This document shows positions 9,433-16,252 of a DNA stretch of 49,793 bases, one piece after another. The position numbers and the translations under genes were made by a program. The stretch is from Beijerinckiaceae bacterium (GTDB taxonomy: Bacteria > Pseudomonadota > Alphaproteobacteria > Rhizobiales > Beijerinckiaceae). The notes beneath the pieces were generated by a model. The model was not told where the DNA came from. It worked only from the letters and a program-made list of their open reading frames with translations, and made no database searches. Position 1 is the stretch's first letter. The number at the start of each line of letters is the position of its first letter. The stretch is from assembly GCA_947474545.1 (NCBI GenBank), contig CANJJI010000014.1, forward strand, positions 1-49,793. The letters are read 5' to 3'.

Positions 9433-9564
9433 CCCTTCGAGACGCGCCTTTCAGGCGCTGCTCAGGGTGAGGTTTTCTGGAAGTTCAGCCCTTTAAAAAA
9501 TTACAACCTCACAACAGCTCTCATGCTGAGAGTTTCGCGAAGCGAAACGTCTCGAAGCACGAGG
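9433..9564. repeat. paired REP-like palindromic elements in inverted orientation
   Basis: Two copies of one palindromic element face each other. Copy A (9433-9472) reads CTTCGAGACG, a stem GCGCCT-TTC-AGGCGC, then CTCAG-GG-TGAGG. Copy B (9520-9564), on the other strand, reads CTTCGAGACG, a stem GTTTCGC-TTC-GCGAAAC, then CTCAG-CA-TGAG. The flanks and the TTC loop are shared, while the stem sequences differ but still pair. This conserved pairing is characteristic of REP-type repeats common in alphaproteobacteria. About 47 bp, including an A run, separates the copies. Copy B contains the start codon of the downstream gene. I did not see other copies in the window. Confidence 0.8.
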
Positions 9565-10611
9565 GCTGCACGTGGAATTGTCACCGCACTGACGGCTGCG
9601 CTCGTTTGCGCAGCCGTTTTGTTTTCTTCCCCCACCCGCGCGCAGGATCAGACCGCCGAATTCTATCGCGGCAAGACTATTCGCCTGATTGTCGGCGCTG
9701 CGGCTGGCGCGGCCTATGATTTCATGGCGCGGGTACTGGCAACCCACTACGGCCATTATATCCCCGGCAATCCCAATTTCGTTGTCGAGAACATGCCCGG
9801 CGCGGGCTCCATCGTGATGCTGAACTATCTAGCCAATCGCGCGGCCAAAGACGGCACGGCGATAGGCCTATCGCTTGGCGGGGTGATCCATGAACCGCGC
9901 CTCAATGCGCTCTCGCGCGATGGCAAGAATGTGCAATTCGATGCCACAAAATTCGGCTGGCTCGGCTCGCCCGCGCAACAGCCGCTGATTTATGTGGTCT
10001 GGCATCAGACCCCGTTCCAGTCGTTTGCCGACCTGCAAAAGCAGGAAGCGACGTTTGCGACGACCTCGCGTTCCGGCGACAATTTTGTCATTCCCGTCTT
10101 CACCAATCAGGCGCTCGGCACAAGGCTGAAACTCGTGCAGGGCTATAAGGGCGTCAACGATATTTTTCACGCGATGGAACAGGGCGAGGTGCAGGGCACC
10201 GGCATGATCCTCGCCAGCCTGCTCGCCAGACAGGACTGGATCAGGGACGGCAAGGCCCGCGTACTGATGCAATTTGGCGCAACGCGTAACCGCCTCATTC
10301 CTGATGCGCCGACCGCCATCGAAATGCTGCAGGAGGAAAGGGCGAAGCAGATGCTGCGCATCTACGCCCAGAAATATGCAACGACCTATCCGTTCATGGT
10401 TCCAGCGGGCACGCCGCCCGAACGCTTGCGCGCGTTGCAGGATGCATTTGATGCGGCGATGAAGGATGAAAAACTGGTCGCCGACGCGCGCAAATTCGGC
10501 ATAGACATCGATCCCGTGCGTGGCGTAGACATCGAAAAAATCGTGGCGGAAGTCGCAACGCTGTCCGGCGATGTGGCGGAACAATTGCGCGGGCTGATCA
10601 ATCCGCCGTGA
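9523..10611 (+). CDS. TctC-like periplasmic solute-binding protein
   Basis: This is a 362-residue exported binding protein of the tripartite-tricarboxylate receptor family, in the FYRGKTIRLIVG subtype rather than the classical Bug form. The n-region is arginine-rich, followed by TALTAALVCAAVLFSS and likely cleavage after TRAQ. Ligand-loop motifs are AGAAYDFMARVLATHYG, IPGNPNFVVENMPGAGS, and ANRAAKDGTAIGL. The only ATG upstream of the signal peptide (9523) lies inside REP-like copy B, which therefore encodes about the first 14 residues. The frame is open back to 9319 but that overlaps the FAH gene. No TctA or TctB is nearby. Its last 16 codons are partly duplicated at 14283-14330. Confidence 0.82.
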   Translation: MLRVSRSETSRSTRAARGIVTALTAALVCAAVLFSSPTRAQDQTAEFYRGKTIRLIVGAAAGAAYDFMARVLATHYGHYIPGNPNFVVENMPGAGSIVMLNYLANRAAKDGTAIGLSLGGVIHEPRLNALSRDGKNVQFDATKFGWLGSPAQQPLIYVVWHQTPFQSFADLQKQEATFATTSRSGDNFVIPVFTNQALGTRLKLVQGYKGVNDIFHAMEQGEVQGTGMILASLLARQDWIRDGKARVLMQFGATRNRLIPDAPTAIEMLQEERAKQMLRIYAQKYATTYPFMVPAGTPPERLRALQDAFDAAMKDEKLVADARKFGIDIDPVRGVDIEKIVAEVATLSGDVAEQLRGLINPP

Positions 10612-10669
10612 GGGTATACTCCCCCGATGTCAGGCTTCACTATTCCTGTGCCGGCTTGCCCCCAGTCAC

Positions 10670-11659
10670 TCAGCTCCTGATCTCATCCGGCGGTGCGCGG
10701 CCCGCCAGAAATTCCAGGATATTGCTTGCGGCCCTGTGTTCTATCGCGAGGCGAACGCTGGCAACGGCGGAGCCCAGATGCGGCGTAAATAAAGTCGCGG
10801 GCTGTTCGCGCAACGCCGGCGGAATCTCCGCAGGGCGGCCGTCCAGTGCCCAATCCTCAAACGCAAACACATCCGCCGCATAGCCGCCGAGCCGGCCGGA
10901 CGTCAGCGCGATTGCAATGGCATCTTCATCTGCAACCGAGCCACGCCCCACATTGATGATGAACTGGCCCGGCCTTGCCTGCGAAAGATAGTGCTGACCA
11001 ATCATCTGCCGTGTGGCGGGCGTCAGCGGCGCGGCAAGGAAAAGATAATCCGCATGCGTCGCGGCTTCCTGCAGGTTCGCCATGTTCACACGCGAATCTA
11101 CCGCCTGCGGATCGACACCCAGAATGCGCGCGCAGCCAAATCCGGCGAGTCTGTCAATAATTGCACATCCGACCTTGCCAAGGCCCACAACTGCTACTAT
11201 CGCCTGATGGAGCCCAGTTCCATAAAGGACAGGCCGCCAGCCCGCGAAGTCGCCGTTGCGCACCAGCCTATCGCCGGCCAGCACTTGCCGGGCCAGACCG
11301 ATGGCCAGACCGATCGCCAGTTCCGCAGTCGGCTCGGTAAGCAAATCGGGCACGATGGATACGCGAACGCCAGCTTGTACTGCAGCCGCGATATCAAAAT
11401 TGTCGTAGCCTTTGAGTGCACATGCGAGCATTTTCAACCGGCCCGGTGCGACGAAGAAAGGCGCTCCCAACCGGTCGGGCATGAATGTCATGACGGCGTC
11501 GCAGGTGCGCGCGAGGGCTTCGACATTGTCGGGGGTCCAGGGTTCAATGCCAGGATTGATGATGACTTCTCCGGCTTCGCGCAACCGGTCCGCGACGGCC
11601 TCGTGAATTCTGGCGGTTACAAGAATCCGGCGCTGCGAAATCTTTTCAGAAACCATCAT
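10670..11659 (-). CDS. ptxD: phosphite dehydrogenase (NAD-dependent)
   Basis: PtxD oxidises phosphite to phosphate with NAD+. This 329-residue D-2-hydroxyacid-dehydrogenase-fold protein matches the Pseudomonas stutzeri enzyme, as I recall it, at every residue implicated in that reaction: Met60 (FMPDR), Lys83 (CALKGYDNFD), Trp141 and Tyr146 (GWRPVLYGTGL), Arg239 (VGRGSVADE), Glu268 (YAADVFAFEDWA), His294 (TPHLGSA) and Arg303 (VRLAIEH). VPDLLTEPTAELAIGL is also nearly identical. The nucleotide fold is GLGKVG with Asp183 at the end of the second strand, favouring NAD over NADP. It is the last gene of the ptx operon and overlaps ptxC by 4 bases (ATGA). It converges on the TctC-like gene with 58 bp between and no clear terminator. 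Confidence 0.9.
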   Translation of the reverse strand: MMVSEKISQRRILVTARIHEAVADRLREAGEVIINPGIEPWTPDNVEALARTCDAVMTFMPDRLGAPFFVAPGRLKMLACALKGYDNFDIAAAVQAGVRVSIVPDLLTEPTAELAIGLAIGLARQVLAGDRLVRNGDFAGWRPVLYGTGLHQAIVAVVGLGKVGCAIIDRLAGFGCARILGVDPQAVDSRVNMANLQEAATHADYLFLAAPLTPATRQMIGQHYLSQARPGQFIINVGRGSVADEDAIAIALTSGRLGGYAADVFAFEDWALDGRPAEIPPALREQPATLFTPHLGSAVASVRLAIEHRAASNILEFLAGRAPPDEIRS

Positions 11660-12459
11660 TTCAGCATCTGCCTCAATCGTCCGCCGATCGAATCAACCAC
11701 GACGACACAGGCCAAAATGGTCAGGAGGATTGCGGAGACTTCGTCATACTTGATCAACCGCAACGCAGCCATCAATTCAAATCCAATGCCGCCCGCTCCG
11801 ACAATGCCCAGAACGGCGGAAGCGCGAAAATGATATTCGGTCCGGTAGATCGTGACATCAGCGAGTTGCGGCAAGACCTGCGGCAAGACCGCATGGGTAA
11901 TAACCTGAAATCGCGTTGCGCCCGCCGCCCGGGCCGCCTCAAGCGGCTTGTGATCAACATGCTCGATGGCTTCAGCAAAGAACTTTCCAACCATGCCCAC
12001 CGAATGCAACCCGAGTGCCAGCACGCCGGGCAGCGCGCCAAAGCCAACCGCGGCGACGAACAATATGCCCATGATAATTTCGGGAACTGAACGCAAAAGC
12101 GCCAGCAGCGCGCGTGCAGCTTCATAGACAATGCGGTGTGGCGTGGTATTTTTGGCCGCGCAAAGAGCCAGTGGCAATGAAAAGAAAATTGCAACAGCCG
12201 TACCCGCAATCGACATGGCCAATGTGTCAAGCAGCGGCCGCAACCAGCTTTGCCAGCGGGCGAAATTGGGCGGCACCATTTCGCTGGCAAGCTGCCGGAT
12301 CGCCGGTCCGCTTTCGATGAATCGTTGCGCGTCGAAAAATCCGGTAATCCAGAGCGCCGATACGATGACAGCAAGTATTGCGGCCAGCAGGGCGGCATGG
12401 CGCCGCGCGCCCTGCCGGTCCTGTGCTAATATTGCCGCGTATTGCGCCGCCTCGCTCAT
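11656..12459 (-). CDS. ptxC: phosphite/phosphonate ABC transporter permease
   Basis: This 267-residue inner-membrane permease belongs to the PhnE/PtxC type (MetI-like fold). About six membrane segments are visible, the first being LLAAILAVIVSALWITGFF. The cytoplasmic coupling loop has the family EAA motif, EAARAAGATRFQVITHAVLP, and the C-terminus has the characteristic ASAVLGIVGAGGIGFEL. It overlaps the upstream binding-protein gene and the downstream ptxD by ATGA on both sides, so translation of the whole set is probably coupled. Alone it could be called phnE; the linked ptxD argues for phosphite as cargo. Confidence 0.88.
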   Translation of the reverse strand: MSEAAQYAAILAQDRQGARRHAALLAAILAVIVSALWITGFFDAQRFIESGPAIRQLASEMVPPNFARWQSWLRPLLDTLAMSIAGTAVAIFFSLPLALCAAKNTTPHRIVYEAARALLALLRSVPEIIMGILFVAAVGFGALPGVLALGLHSVGMVGKFFAEAIEHVDHKPLEAARAAGATRFQVITHAVLPQVLPQLADVTIYRTEYHFRASAVLGIVGAGGIGFELMAALRLIKYDEVSAILLTILACVVVVDSIGGRLRQMLK

Positions 12460-13325
12460 TTCATCGCCGCAAGATCTAGCTGCAGAATTTTCGCGGTTTC
12501 GCGCAGCACGTCATAGGTCTGGTCGTTGGCGGCGACAAACCCTTCGACGCGGAACGACTTTAGGACTTCTTTGTCTGTTACTTCCAGAAATGCCCGGCGA
12601 ATCGCGTCCTTCAGTACTGGCGCCAGATCGCCCTGCATCACTATGGGATAGTTCGGAATTTTGTCAGAGACAGCGAGGATTGACAGTTTTTCGGCGTCAA
12701 TCGTTTTGCGTTCGATCAGCACGTCGAAAATCGATTTTGATAATGCGCCTGCTGGCACCTGCCCCGCCTGAACCGCGCGGGCGACCGCATCATGGGTGCC
12801 CAGATGCACGGGCTTGTAATCCTTTGCACCATCGAGGCCGGCTTTGCTCAATAGCAAGGCGCGCGGCGAAAGATGGCTGGACGTTGAAGCCTGATCGCCA
12901 AAACCAAATGGCTTGCCGCGCACATCTTCAAGCGTCTTGACCGGACCAGCCTTGTTGGCGATCAGGACAGAATTGTAAAACGGTGCGCCACGCTCGACCC
13001 CCACGGCAAATGGTTCGATATTGGGCGCTTTCGATTTTGCCAGAACATAGGAGAACGGTCCAAAATAGGCCACTTCAATACGCCCGAAACGCATGGCTTC
13101 GATCATCGAAGAATAATCGGTCGTCACAATGATCTCGATGTCCTTTTTGAGAACATTGGCGAGATAGGTTTTGAGAGGCTGCGCGTTCTGGATCAGCGTC
13201 GAGGCGTTTTCATCCGGCAGCAGCGCAACGCGCAACCGGGCAGGATCCTTGCCCTGAGCGAATGCCGGGGCAGCTGCACAAACCGCGCTGGCGGCGGCGT
13301 AACGGATAAAATCTCTGCGTTTCAT
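12456..13325 (-). CDS. ptxB: phosphite/phosphonate periplasmic binding protein
   Basis: This 289-residue solute receptor belongs to the PhnD/PtxB family. The N-terminus MKRRDFIRYAAASAVCAAAP looks like a twin-arginine signal ending near AFAQG. The mature protein shows the PhnD-type pattern: LRVALLPDENASTLIQNAQ, TTDYSSMIEAMRFGRIEVAYFGPFSY (the YFGPFSY stretch lies in the anion pocket in this family), and GKPFGFGDQASTSSHLSPR with the Ser/Thr cluster that holds the oxyanion. Length is usual for the family. It overlaps ptxA and ptxC by 4 bases each. Specificity for phosphite rather than phosphonate is inferred from ptxD. Confidence 0.88.
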   Translation of the reverse strand: MKRRDFIRYAAASAVCAAAPAFAQGKDPARLRVALLPDENASTLIQNAQPLKTYLANVLKKDIEIIVTTDYSSMIEAMRFGRIEVAYFGPFSYVLAKSKAPNIEPFAVGVERGAPFYNSVLIANKAGPVKTLEDVRGKPFGFGDQASTSSHLSPRALLLSKAGLDGAKDYKPVHLGTHDAVARAVQAGQVPAGALSKSIFDVLIERKTIDAEKLSILAVSDKIPNYPIVMQGDLAPVLKDAIRRAFLEVTDKEVLKSFRVEGFVAANDQTYDVLRETAKILQLDLAAMK

Positions 13326-14119
13326 GAGGCAACTCCAATTGGTGGGATGTTCTGGATGGGAACGCGCCGAGGGAGCCGCCCGCTGGCCGGTACGATGTTG
13401 CCGTAAATCGCCGCTACGGCATTTTCATCGAGTTGCGATGGCGGTCCGTCGAAGACAACTTTTCCCGCATGCAGTCCAACAATCCGGCCCGCAAATTTCT
13501 TGGCGAATTCGATCTGGTGCAGACTTACAACAGCGGTCAGTCCATCACTCTGGCAAATACCGTGCAGCAGAGAGAGCACATGGTCCGAGGTTGCGGGGTC
13601 AAGCGATGCGACCGGCTCATCAGCAAGAATGATTTCCGGCGATTGAACCAGTGCGCGGGCAATGCCGACGCGTTGCTGCTGCCCGCCCGACAATTCATCG
13701 ACACGGCGCAATGCCTCTTTCAGCAAACCAACCCGGTCAATAGCTCTCAGGGCCAATTCCTTTTCGGCGTGTGAAAAGCCAAACAGCGTCTTCAGCGGCG
13801 AATGAAAGGCCAGTCTGCCCGTCAACACGTTGGACAGCACGCTCAACCTGCCAATCAGATGGTGCTGCTGGAAGATCATGCCGGTCTGACGCCTGTGCGC
13901 GCGCAATTGTTTCTTGCCCGCTATATCGCCGGTGGCGGATTCGATCCGCCCGCCAGTCAGGCGCACCAGGCCGTTAAAGCTCCGCAGCAATGTCGATTTG
14001 CCGGCGCCTGAAGGACCCAGCAGCACGGTAAAGCTACCCGGCTCGATCGACAGTGTGGTCGCGGACAGGGCGAGTGTGCCGTTGGGATAAGTAACTTCTG
14101 CAGCCAGCGCCTGGAGCAT
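13322..14119 (-). CDS. ptxA: phosphite/phosphonate ABC transporter ATPase
   Basis: This 265-residue ATPase energises the importer. Walker A is GPSGAGKST at residues 35-43, the Q-loop follows at MIFQQHHLIGRLSVLSNVL, the signature is LSGGQQQRVGIARALV, and Walker B is IILADEPVASLDP. The GRLAFHSPLKTLFG insertion after the Q-loop is typical of PhnC/PtxA. It is the first gene of the operon: GAGAGGA lies about 7 bases before the ATG, and the Pho-box-like array starts 37 bases upstream. Its end overlaps ptxB by ATGA. Confidence 0.9.
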   Translation of the reverse strand: MLQALAAEVTYPNGTLALSATTLSIEPGSFTVLLGPSGAGKSTLLRSFNGLVRLTGGRIESATGDIAGKKQLRAHRRQTGMIFQQHHLIGRLSVLSNVLTGRLAFHSPLKTLFGFSHAEKELALRAIDRVGLLKEALRRVDELSGGQQQRVGIARALVQSPEIILADEPVASLDPATSDHVLSLLHGICQSDGLTAVVSLHQIEFAKKFAGRIVGLHAGKVVFDGPPSQLDENAVAAIYGNIVPASGRLPRRVPIQNIPPIGVAS

Positions 14120-14155
14120 TCGGGGGTCCTCTCACGTTGTCGCTAGGCGCGGCGC

Positions 14156-14184
14156 GTGACAGTCCTGTGAATAAATTTTGACAT
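14156..14184 (-). promoter_or_regulatory. Pho-box-like array upstream of ptxABCD
   Basis: On the minus strand three half-sites follow each other at an exact 11-base period: ATGTCAA, TATTCAC and CTGTCAC, each separated by 4 bases. The consensus PhoB half-site is CTGTCAY. The promoter-proximal copy matches 7/7, the middle one 4/7 and the distal one 5/7. The array ends 37 bases before the ptxA start. PhoB sites stand in for the -35 element, and this position suits that role. PhoB control is inferred from sequence pattern alone. Confidence 0.65.
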
Positions 14185-14282
14185 TTATGATTTGCGCTAA
14201 GGCATCGCCTGTAGCGCTCCGCGCCCGACTTAGTCAGCCGCCCCATACGCACTTGGAGAATTGGCGTGGTGACCTTTAGCGC

Positions 14283-14330
14283 CTCTCCGGCGATGTCGTG
14301 GCGCAATTGTGCGGCCTGATCAATCCGCCG
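14283..14330 (+). pseudogene. 3' fragment of a TctC-like gene
   Basis: These 48 bases match 10561-10608, the last 16 codons of the TctC-like gene at 9523, at 40 of 48 positions and in the same orientation. The fragment would read LSGDVVAQLCGLINPP against LSGDVAEQLRGLINPP. Its frame is closed by a TAG at 14277-14279 and continues past the homologous stop, so it is not a working gene. The two copies bracket the ptx operon as imperfect direct repeats. It may be the remains of a second TctC-like gene. Confidence 0.7.
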
Positions 14331-14428
14331 GAAACCATGCCGCGGCTCGCCTTTTCGCGGGTCATAATGCTTTAAAACCCCCGTTATATGTTCAGCTTCG
14401 TTTCCCGTTAGCGCCAGAGATCGCCGAT

Positions 14429-14920
14429 ATGTTCCAATTTTTTGCGAAGCTATTCCTGCGTTTGGGCTTTATCGCCTTTTTGGCTGGCCTTGCCCCCACC
14501 TCGATCGCCATATTCGACCAATTGACGTGTACGCCTGCCACAGCGCGCGTTGAGAGCCTTCAAGGCGCTCGAACCGCGATCAGCTTTACCACTGCCGACG
14601 GACGGCCGGTGAGGATGCTGGCCTATACGCGAAAGATCGGCCTCGAATTCCGGGCTATGGCGCCGGGGTCCAGCACGCTGTCACCCGGCGTCTATTCTGG
14701 CGACAGACCGGTCCGCGCAGGCGCAGCTGTCAACATCCTCTATCGCGGCGCGGGCATAGACGCGCCGCCCTACGTCTCGCAACCATTTTCCTTTGCTGCG
14801 GAAAGGCTGGGCATCACGGTGGGCTCAATCGGGCTGGTCCTGCTGCTGTTGAGCATGGTGCTCCTGCGTCTCTCAGGCAGCGGATCGGGCCGACGCGGAT
14901 CTTTTGCAGGCGCTCATTGA
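14429..14920 (+). CDS. membrane protein, DUF3592-like
   Basis: This 163-residue protein has one membrane segment near the N-terminus (GFIAFLAGLAPTSIAIF) and one near the C-terminus (TVGSIGLVLLLLSMVLL). Between them is a domain of about 90 residues outside the membrane core. The middle part (ARVESLQGARTAISFTTADG, then GDRPVRAGAAVNILYRGAG) has the beta-rich layout of DUF3592 proteins, an unexplained family. I took the ATG at 14429 rather than the upstream one at 14309, because the earlier 40 codons run through the degenerate TctC fragment and look non-coding. The ribosome site is weak. It is followed 135 bp later by the glutaryl-CoA dehydrogenase operon. Confidence 0.6.
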   Translation: MFQFFAKLFLRLGFIAFLAGLAPTSIAIFDQLTCTPATARVESLQGARTAISFTTADGRPVRMLAYTRKIGLEFRAMAPGSSTLSPGVYSGDRPVRAGAAVNILYRGAGIDAPPYVSQPFSFAAERLGITVGSIGLVLLLLSMVLLRLSGSGSGRRGSFAGAH

Positions 14921-15055
14921 CGCCGGCAAGGCAGACGATGAAGCATTGCTGACCAATCACGCACGGCGCTCCGGCAAGGCTCGAAAAGCGCCCTTGCCAA
15001 TTCGCCCTGCCTGCCGCAAACCTGCCGGGAACCAAACAAGCCTGCCGGAGCCCCC

Positions 15056-16252
15056 ATGGCCAACACTGCCGCCAAGAATGAATTCGTCTGGGATGATCCC
15101 TTCCTGTTCGAGAGCCAGCTCAACGAGGAAGAGCGGATGATCCGCGACACGGCGCGGGATTTCGCACAGAGTGAATTGCTGCCCAAGGTGGTCAAAGCCT
15201 ATGCCAATGAAACTGTTGACCGCGATGTCATCCCTGCTATGGGCAAGCTCGGCCTGCTGGCCGTCACCTTGCCGGAACAATATGGCGGCTCGGGCGCTGG
15301 CTATGTGAGCTATGGCCTTGTGGCGCGGGAAATCGAGCGGGTGGATTCAGGCTATCGCTCCATGCTGTCTGTACAATCCTCGCTCGTCATGCATCCCATC
15401 AACGCCTTCGGCAGCGAAGAGCAGAAGCGTAAATATCTGCCCAAACTCGCTACCGGCGAATGGGTCGGCTGTTTCGGCCTCACCGAACCGGATTCCGGGT
15501 CTGACCCGGGCTCGATGACCACAAAGGCCGAAAAGGTGCAGGGCGGCTATGCTATTACCGGGCGGAAAATGTGGATTTCCAACGCGCCCATCGCCGATGT
15601 GTTCGTCGTCTGGGCGAAATCGGACGCGCACAAGGGTGCGATCAAAGGATTTATCATTGAGAAGGGCGCGAAGGGCCTGTCAGCGCCCAAGGTTGAGGGC
15701 AAGCTGTCGCTACGCGTGTCTGTGACAGGCGAACTGGTGCTTGATGGCGTTGAAGTCTCCGAAGACCAGATCCTGCCAAATGTCAGCGGGCTCAAGGGGC
15801 CATTCGAATGTCTCAACCGTGCGCGTTTTGGCATATCCTGGGGTGCCATGGGCGCGGCGGAAGATTGCTGGTTCCGCGCCCGGCAATATACGCTGGACAG
15901 AAAGCAATTCGGCCGGCCGCTCGCCGCCAATCAGCTCATTCAGAAAAAACTCGCGGATATGCAGACCGAAATCACGCTGGGCCTGCAGGGCGCGCTGCGC
16001 ATCGGCCGGTTGTTCGATGAGGGACGGCTTGCGCCGGAAATGATCTCGATCATGAAGCGCAACAACGCCGGCAAGGCGCTCGACATCGCCCGTGTCGCCC
16101 GCGACATGCATGGCGGCAATGGCGTGCATGGCGATTTCCACGTGATGCGCCACCTGCAGAACCTGGAATCGGTCAATACCTATGAAGGAACGCATGATGT
16201 GCATGCGCTGATTCTGGGCCGGGCGCAGACGGGGATACAGGCGTTTTTCTGA
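15056..16252 (+). CDS. gcdH: glutaryl-CoA dehydrogenase
   Basis: GcdH is an FAD enzyme that oxidises and decarboxylates glutaryl-CoA to crotonyl-CoA in lysine, tryptophan and glutarate breakdown, passing electrons to ETF. The 398 residues show the acyl-CoA dehydrogenase layout: an N-terminal helical domain, [19 protein letters not shown] in the middle beta domain, and the C-terminal helical domain with the catalytic base Glu377 in [17 protein letters not shown]. The N-terminus [20 protein letters not shown] and the [13 protein letters not shown] [15 protein letters not shown] are characteristic of GcdH among its relatives. It begins a tightly packed operon with a membrane protein and a CoA-transferase. 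Confidence 0.93.

Follow-up and report, generated by a model that had tools for sequence, protein, structure and literature searches.

The window analysed here is the 49,793-nucleotide stretch from contig CANJJI010000014.1 of a Beijerinckiaceae bacterium, and its element of interest is a minus-strand operon, ptxA-ptxB-ptxC-ptxD, which spans positions 10670-14119 and is predicted to import and oxidise phosphite. Four intact open reading frames (ORFs) are present, and all three gene junctions are 4-base ATGA overlaps, as an earlier sequence-only reading had described; its coordinates are correct, and it named no strand. The ptxA gene (13322..14119) encodes the putative ATPase subunit of a phosphite ATP-binding cassette (ABC) importer of the PhnC family (TIGR02315, 298 bits; cut-off 266), ptxB (12456..13325) a predicted periplasmic phosphite-binding protein that meets TIGR01098 (phosphate/phosphite/phosphonate-binding), ptxC (11656..12459) a permease of the PhnE family (TIGR01097, 291 bits; cut-off 216.7), and ptxD (10670..11659) a predicted phosphite dehydrogenase dependent on nicotinamide adenine dinucleotide (NAD), classed by Pfam as a D-2-hydroxyacid dehydrogenase; all four genes lie on the minus strand. 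By ORFs and family models, the ABC importer genes and ptxD therefore stand together in one operon, which is the assimilatory ptxABCD arrangement.

Comparison with solved structures agreed with this assignment of the dehydrogenase. The top 14 matches of PtxD are all named phosphite or phosphonate dehydrogenase (263-284 bits, with the Pseudomonas stutzeri structures at 284), and the best solved structure outside this group is a glyoxylate reductase at 140 bits. We take the P. stutzeri structures (4e5k and 4e5n for PtxD, 5o2j for PtxB) to come from strain WM88 and its ptxABCDE operon. PtxD of the window is 46% identical to P. stutzeri PtxD over 315 aligned columns, and the eight residues to which the sequence-only reading had drawn attention are all present in the alignment: M60, K83, W141, Y146, R239, E268, H294 and R303 correspond to P. 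stutzeri positions 53, 76, 134, 139, 237, 266, 292 and 301. D86 and S297 also match P. stutzeri positions 79 and 295. Asp183 aligns with Glu175, which we take to be the NAD-binding position, and on that assumption the Asp noted earlier at this site is borne out. We further assume that Arg237 and Glu266 form a catalytic set with His292 and that Lys76 and Met53 are functional residues of PtxD; all of these, together with Arg301, Trp134 and Tyr139, are kept in the window protein. Roles of His292, Arg301, Trp134 and Tyr139 are described in PMC3909101.

The value of these residues as markers was examined in 48 PtxD-like rows and in paralogues from the window's own genome, of which the seven with a fetched locus were used, out of 13 other own-genome matches. 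R239, E268, H294, R303 and W141 are kept in all 48 rows, M60 in 47 (one gap), K83 in 46 (one Ala, one gap), D183 in 46 and Y146 in 43 (five Phe). The paralogues share Arg239 and Glu268 in seven of seven cases, Trp141 and His294 in six and Arg303 in two, and none of them carries M60, K83 or Y146. Because most of the eight residues recur in the paralogues, only part of the list (Met60, Lys83 and Tyr146) is diagnostic. In a 54-row tree, 47 PtxD-like rows, including those of the window and P. stutzeri, split from the seven paralogues with support of 100/99, placing the dehydrogenase inside the PtxD clade, a point that the sequence-only reading had left to a tree. The window protein pairs with that of locus L009 (an uncultured Rhizobiales) and then with that of L010 (Alcaligenaceae), each with support of 100/99. 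Four of the paralogue branches are very long and their mutual order is unsure; the partial sequence L039 was excluded from the tree, and L043, which is the window itself, from both the residue alignment and the tree. The ptxD gene of another member of the genus (G161, locus L076) contains one in-frame TAG and is possibly a pseudogene, or else wrongly assembled.

The binding protein points to the same ligand. The best solved matches of PtxB are PtxB proteins at 240-269 bits (5o2j at 269), compared with 89 bits for HtxB, and the protein falls below the PhnD model TIGR03431 (197 bits vs a cut-off of 261). As read from the alignment, it keeps D38, Y71, Y117, S147-T148-S149, H178 and the cap Y226, all phosphite-binding residues according to the list in PMC5700983, which also gives Escherichia coli PhnD an Asp and a Thr where PtxB has the phosphite cap Y226 and D38. 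Judged by its sequence, the window protein is PtxB-like rather than PhnD-like. The curated models for ptxA, ptxB and ptxC and the solved PtxD and PtxB matches thus support the importer and dehydrogenase identities proposed from the letters alone.

The operon occupies the same locus, the junction between a TctC-type receptor gene and an acyl-CoA dehydrogenase gene, in a genome of the same genus, the uncultured Rhizobiales ErkenSummer_bin-4723 (L009 and G166 denote the same assembly, and L009 and L082 are one record). Between the two, the ratio of nonsynonymous to synonymous divergence (dN/dS) was 0.10 for ptxA, 0.02 for ptxB, 0.04 for ptxC and 0.15 for ptxD, with dS of 0.93-1.35; six flanking genes gave an overlapping dS of 0.66-1.27 and dN/dS of 0.07-0.10. 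Identity was 83% for ptxA (dN 0.10, dS 1.04), 95% for ptxB, 91% for ptxC and 79-80% for PtxD, which is under clear purifying selection, somewhat looser than that on its neighbours. Because the locus is the same, the dS values overlap and dN/dS is low, the operon was probably already present at this junction in the common ancestor of the window and G166 and has been maintained since.

No ptxE follows ptxD, in agreement with the sequence-only reading, and the LysR gene of a P. stutzeri-type ptxABCDE operon is therefore missing from this position. The query for PtxE was a Cupriavidus LysR-family protein encoded directly after ptxD and taken as PtxE by position; its best match in the window's own genome is 30% identical (72.6 bits) and lies on another contig. 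Across 43 ptxD loci, a count in which some contigs end soon after ptxD and one record appears twice (L009/L082), a PtxE match directly after ptxD was found in 15 (the query's own L092 among them) and none in 28. The absence of ptxE was considered as a peculiarity of the window and rejected, since those 28 loci likewise have no PtxE match there.

Upstream of ptxA, a PhoB-box-like site (TATTCAC-AGGA-CTGTCAC) is located at 14156..14173 on the minus strand and agrees at 11/14 positions with what we presume to be the Pho-box consensus. Such sites are enriched before ptxA over 26 loci: none of 150 permuted direct-repeat motifs came up to the sum of 214 obtained with the real motif (the best of them gave 134), and changing the spacer to 2 or 3 gave 67 and 59. 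The 26 loci are what remains of 41 listed after removal of four near-copies (L017, L018, L021 and L028) and 11 without a 215-bit ptxA match. These tests used a C/T-tolerant consensus on one strand over 150 bases (150-180 in one). The window's own genome contains phoB above the cut-off, and the cluster on its contig C191 reads phoR-pstSCAB-phoU-phoB, where the names except phoB come from reading the translations. The P. stutzeri ptx operon is said, in the title of a 2004 paper by White and Metcalf, to belong to the Pho regulon. Control of the window's operon by phosphate starvation through PhoB is likely on this evidence.

We put at about 92% the probability that the four genes are functional as a ptxABCD operon that serves the assimilatory oxidation of phosphite, as the sequence comparisons suggest. 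We infer that PtxB would bind phosphite in the periplasm, its capping tyrosine favouring phosphite over phosphate, that PtxC and PtxA would carry it into the cell using ATP, and that PtxD would oxidise it to phosphate with reduction of NAD+ to NADH; PhoB would switch on expression under phosphate starvation without a dedicated PtxE, and the cell could then grow on phosphite. PhnJ was not found in the window's own genome (96% complete), so a carbon-phosphorus lyase is unlikely to be fed by the importer. In the parts of the literature consulted, which cover PtxD, PtxB and both modes of phosphite oxidation (PMC5700983, PMC12102248, PMC3909101, PMC11933879, PMC10746228, PMC4046663), ptxABCD without ptxE is described as the assimilatory set (PMC11933879), and Prochlorococcus is reported to have a ptxABCD operon (PMC5700983).

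Several observations weigh against this interpretation. No NCBIfam model among the PtxD matches names PtxD, so that no curated cut-off stands behind the PtxD call, and the dN/dS of ptxD (0.15) is the highest of the four genes and exceeds that of the six flanking genes. A first scan with the strict consensus (both strands, about 300 bases) was negative, the best site scoring 9/14 and 310 of 500 shuffles reaching at least 9. The site reported above is modest, with p of 0.011 against the whole window and 0.026 against 8 kilobases on either side, values that call for caution because the rule was relaxed after that scan; the permuted-motif enrichment is firmer. At the L009/L082 locus the best site lies at the same offset and is weaker (10/14, p 0.10). 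The Fisher p over the 26 loci, about 2e-22, is too small because the loci are not independent, L090/L091 and L083/L084, for example, being close kin. Ten of the 26 have p > 0.05 (L010, L020, L024, L027, L031, L037, L039, L040, L042 and L082), and six of these exceed 0.15 (L024, L027, L031, L037, L040 and L042).

The distribution of the genes is patchy. ptxD (E <= 1e-50) was found in 7/51 genomes of the genus, with ptxB (E 1e-30) in the same seven, and in 4/149 sampled genomes of the family, the window's own included. In three genes shared at the locus, the genome G178 is less diverged from the window than G166 is (dS 0.50-0.77 vs 0.66-1.01). At its syntenic locus (L081), the TctC-type gene and the acyl-CoA dehydrogenase gene share a contig and are separated by a different ORF, of 115 amino acids, with no ptx gene; another ptx operon, whose PtxD is 49% identical, lies on a different contig. 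On the PtxD tree the rows of the genus need three label changes, at least two of them forced by well-supported branches, although three changes could equal one gain and two losses. Our preferred reading, which is not proven, is a loss in G178 together with separate gains of ptx. A broader account can be offered tentatively, at somewhat below even odds: phosphite use in the genus would have been gained and exchanged repeatedly, with different PtxD lineages as sources. One of these lineages would have become established at the junction of the TctC-type and acyl-CoA dehydrogenase genes before the window species and G166 parted, and would then have been lost in the sister G178, which has its different operon on another contig, with PhoB as a shared switch making the cassettes interchangeable. 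If true, a species can lose one phosphite operon and use another.

The four genes may also differ in origin. Outside L009, PtxB is closest to that of L029 (76.0%), PtxC to those of L021 and L083 (77.5 and 77.3%) and PtxD to that of L010 (59.2%), and in a tree of the ABC parts, built from the 34 rows that carry all four genes, the fork that holds L010 and the window pair has no clear order. The operon may be a mosaic with PtxD and PtxABC from different sources. At the ptxD loci L012, L023, L025 and L026, the importer genes are only about 30-42% identical to ptxABC, and PtxD there seems to be linked with a different kind of importer.

The operon is flanked by the TctC-type gene (9502-10611), which is convergent with ptxD and ends at 10611, and, on the other side, by an ORF (14309-14920) with no Pfam match and the acyl-CoA dehydrogenase gene. 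On the far side of the operon, at 14283..14330 on the plus strand, the 3' end of the TctC-type gene (10561-10608) recurs as a diverged 48-base copy (85%), possibly a recombination scar. No second copy was detected in L009 or L081, where the closest matches (39 and 35 of 48) were the ends of their TctC genes and the next reached 26/48. A search of the genus for the source of the repeat and the ORF, with nine candidates scored per genome, turned up no more than five short matches apart from the query itself (31-48 bases long at 83-90%; best E 5e-8). The cargo between the TctC-type and acyl-CoA dehydrogenase genes is ptx in L009 (5223-9045), ptx plus the extra ORF in the window (10611-15056) and the 115-amino-acid ORF in L081 (6522-7271); because it differs among three relatives, the junction is a possible insertion hotspot. 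The genus is very rich in TctC-type receptor genes; in the window's own genome, 39 of the 275 first-look candidates were scored and every one of them matched.

Three rival explanations were weighed. PtxD works in both modes according to PMC12102248, and could serve energy metabolism (dissimilatory phosphite oxidation) instead of phosphorus supply. This is very unlikely given that ptxD sits in an ABC-importer operon, the set assigned to assimilation in PMC11933879, that no ptxE follows it, and that the operon is flanked by genes for a TctC-type receptor and an acyl-CoA dehydrogenase and by an ORF that matches no family; ptdC/F/G/H/I were not seen beside ptxD, as judged from the families of adjacent genes only, with no ptd model and no genome-wide search. 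We give equally little weight to the idea that the genes are merely ptx-like and handle another ligand, a phosphonate for the importer or a 2-hydroxyacid for the enzyme: PtxA and PtxC do fit PhnC and PhnE, which are generic models for phosphonate uptake, and Arg239, Glu268 and His294, present in nearly all paralogues, are uninformative on substrate, but PtxB keeps the phosphite cap (Y226, D38) and falls under the PhnD cut-off, and PtxD keeps the three residues found in none of the seven paralogues.

The remaining alternative is that the operon was recently acquired or is decaying, and is not maintained. It draws on the patchy occurrence in the genus, the G178 locus without the operon, the 48-base repeat flanking the genes, and a PtxD protein that changes somewhat faster than the products of the six flanking genes. 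The operon is nevertheless shared at the same locus with G166, its dS overlaps that of the neighbours with dN/dS of 0.02-0.15, its four frames are intact, and its guanine plus cytosine content is 58.2% against 57.6% for the window, which makes this explanation highly improbable. Assimilatory use of phosphite by a maintained operon is the reading we retain.

The phosphite operon of the window is therefore genuine and probably functions in assimilation, a known trait that is patchy among relatives. The probable phosphite users thereby come to include an uncultured lineage, placed in the Rhizobiales through the label on the same-genus L009, and the pair of same-locus operons, together with the empty site, offers a means to date when the operon was gained and lost. 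In operons both with and without ptxE, the enrichment of Pho-box-like sites ahead of ptxA speaks for control by phosphate starvation; understanding of the mechanism is not changed.

Among the closest known systems, the ptxABCD operon of ErkenSummer_bin-4723 lies at the same locus and is also without ptxE; the window differs from it in having the 48-base TctC repeat and, in the stretch from ptxA to the acyl-CoA dehydrogenase gene, an additional ORF. Outside this locus, the nearest PtxD (59% identical) belongs to the ptxABCD genes of an Alcaligenaceae metagenome-assembled genome (L010), where no PtxE match follows ptxD, the opposite strand upstream carries a LysR-like stretch that matches the PtxE query at 29%, and the ABC tree leaves the pairing with the window open. 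Compared with ptxABCDE of P. stutzeri WM88, the window lacks ptxE after ptxD, its PtxD is only 46% identical, and Asp replaces Glu175, as in 46/48 PtxD-like rows. The two operons are alike in gene families and in active-site and binding-site residues, and presumably also in the gene order A-B-C-D.

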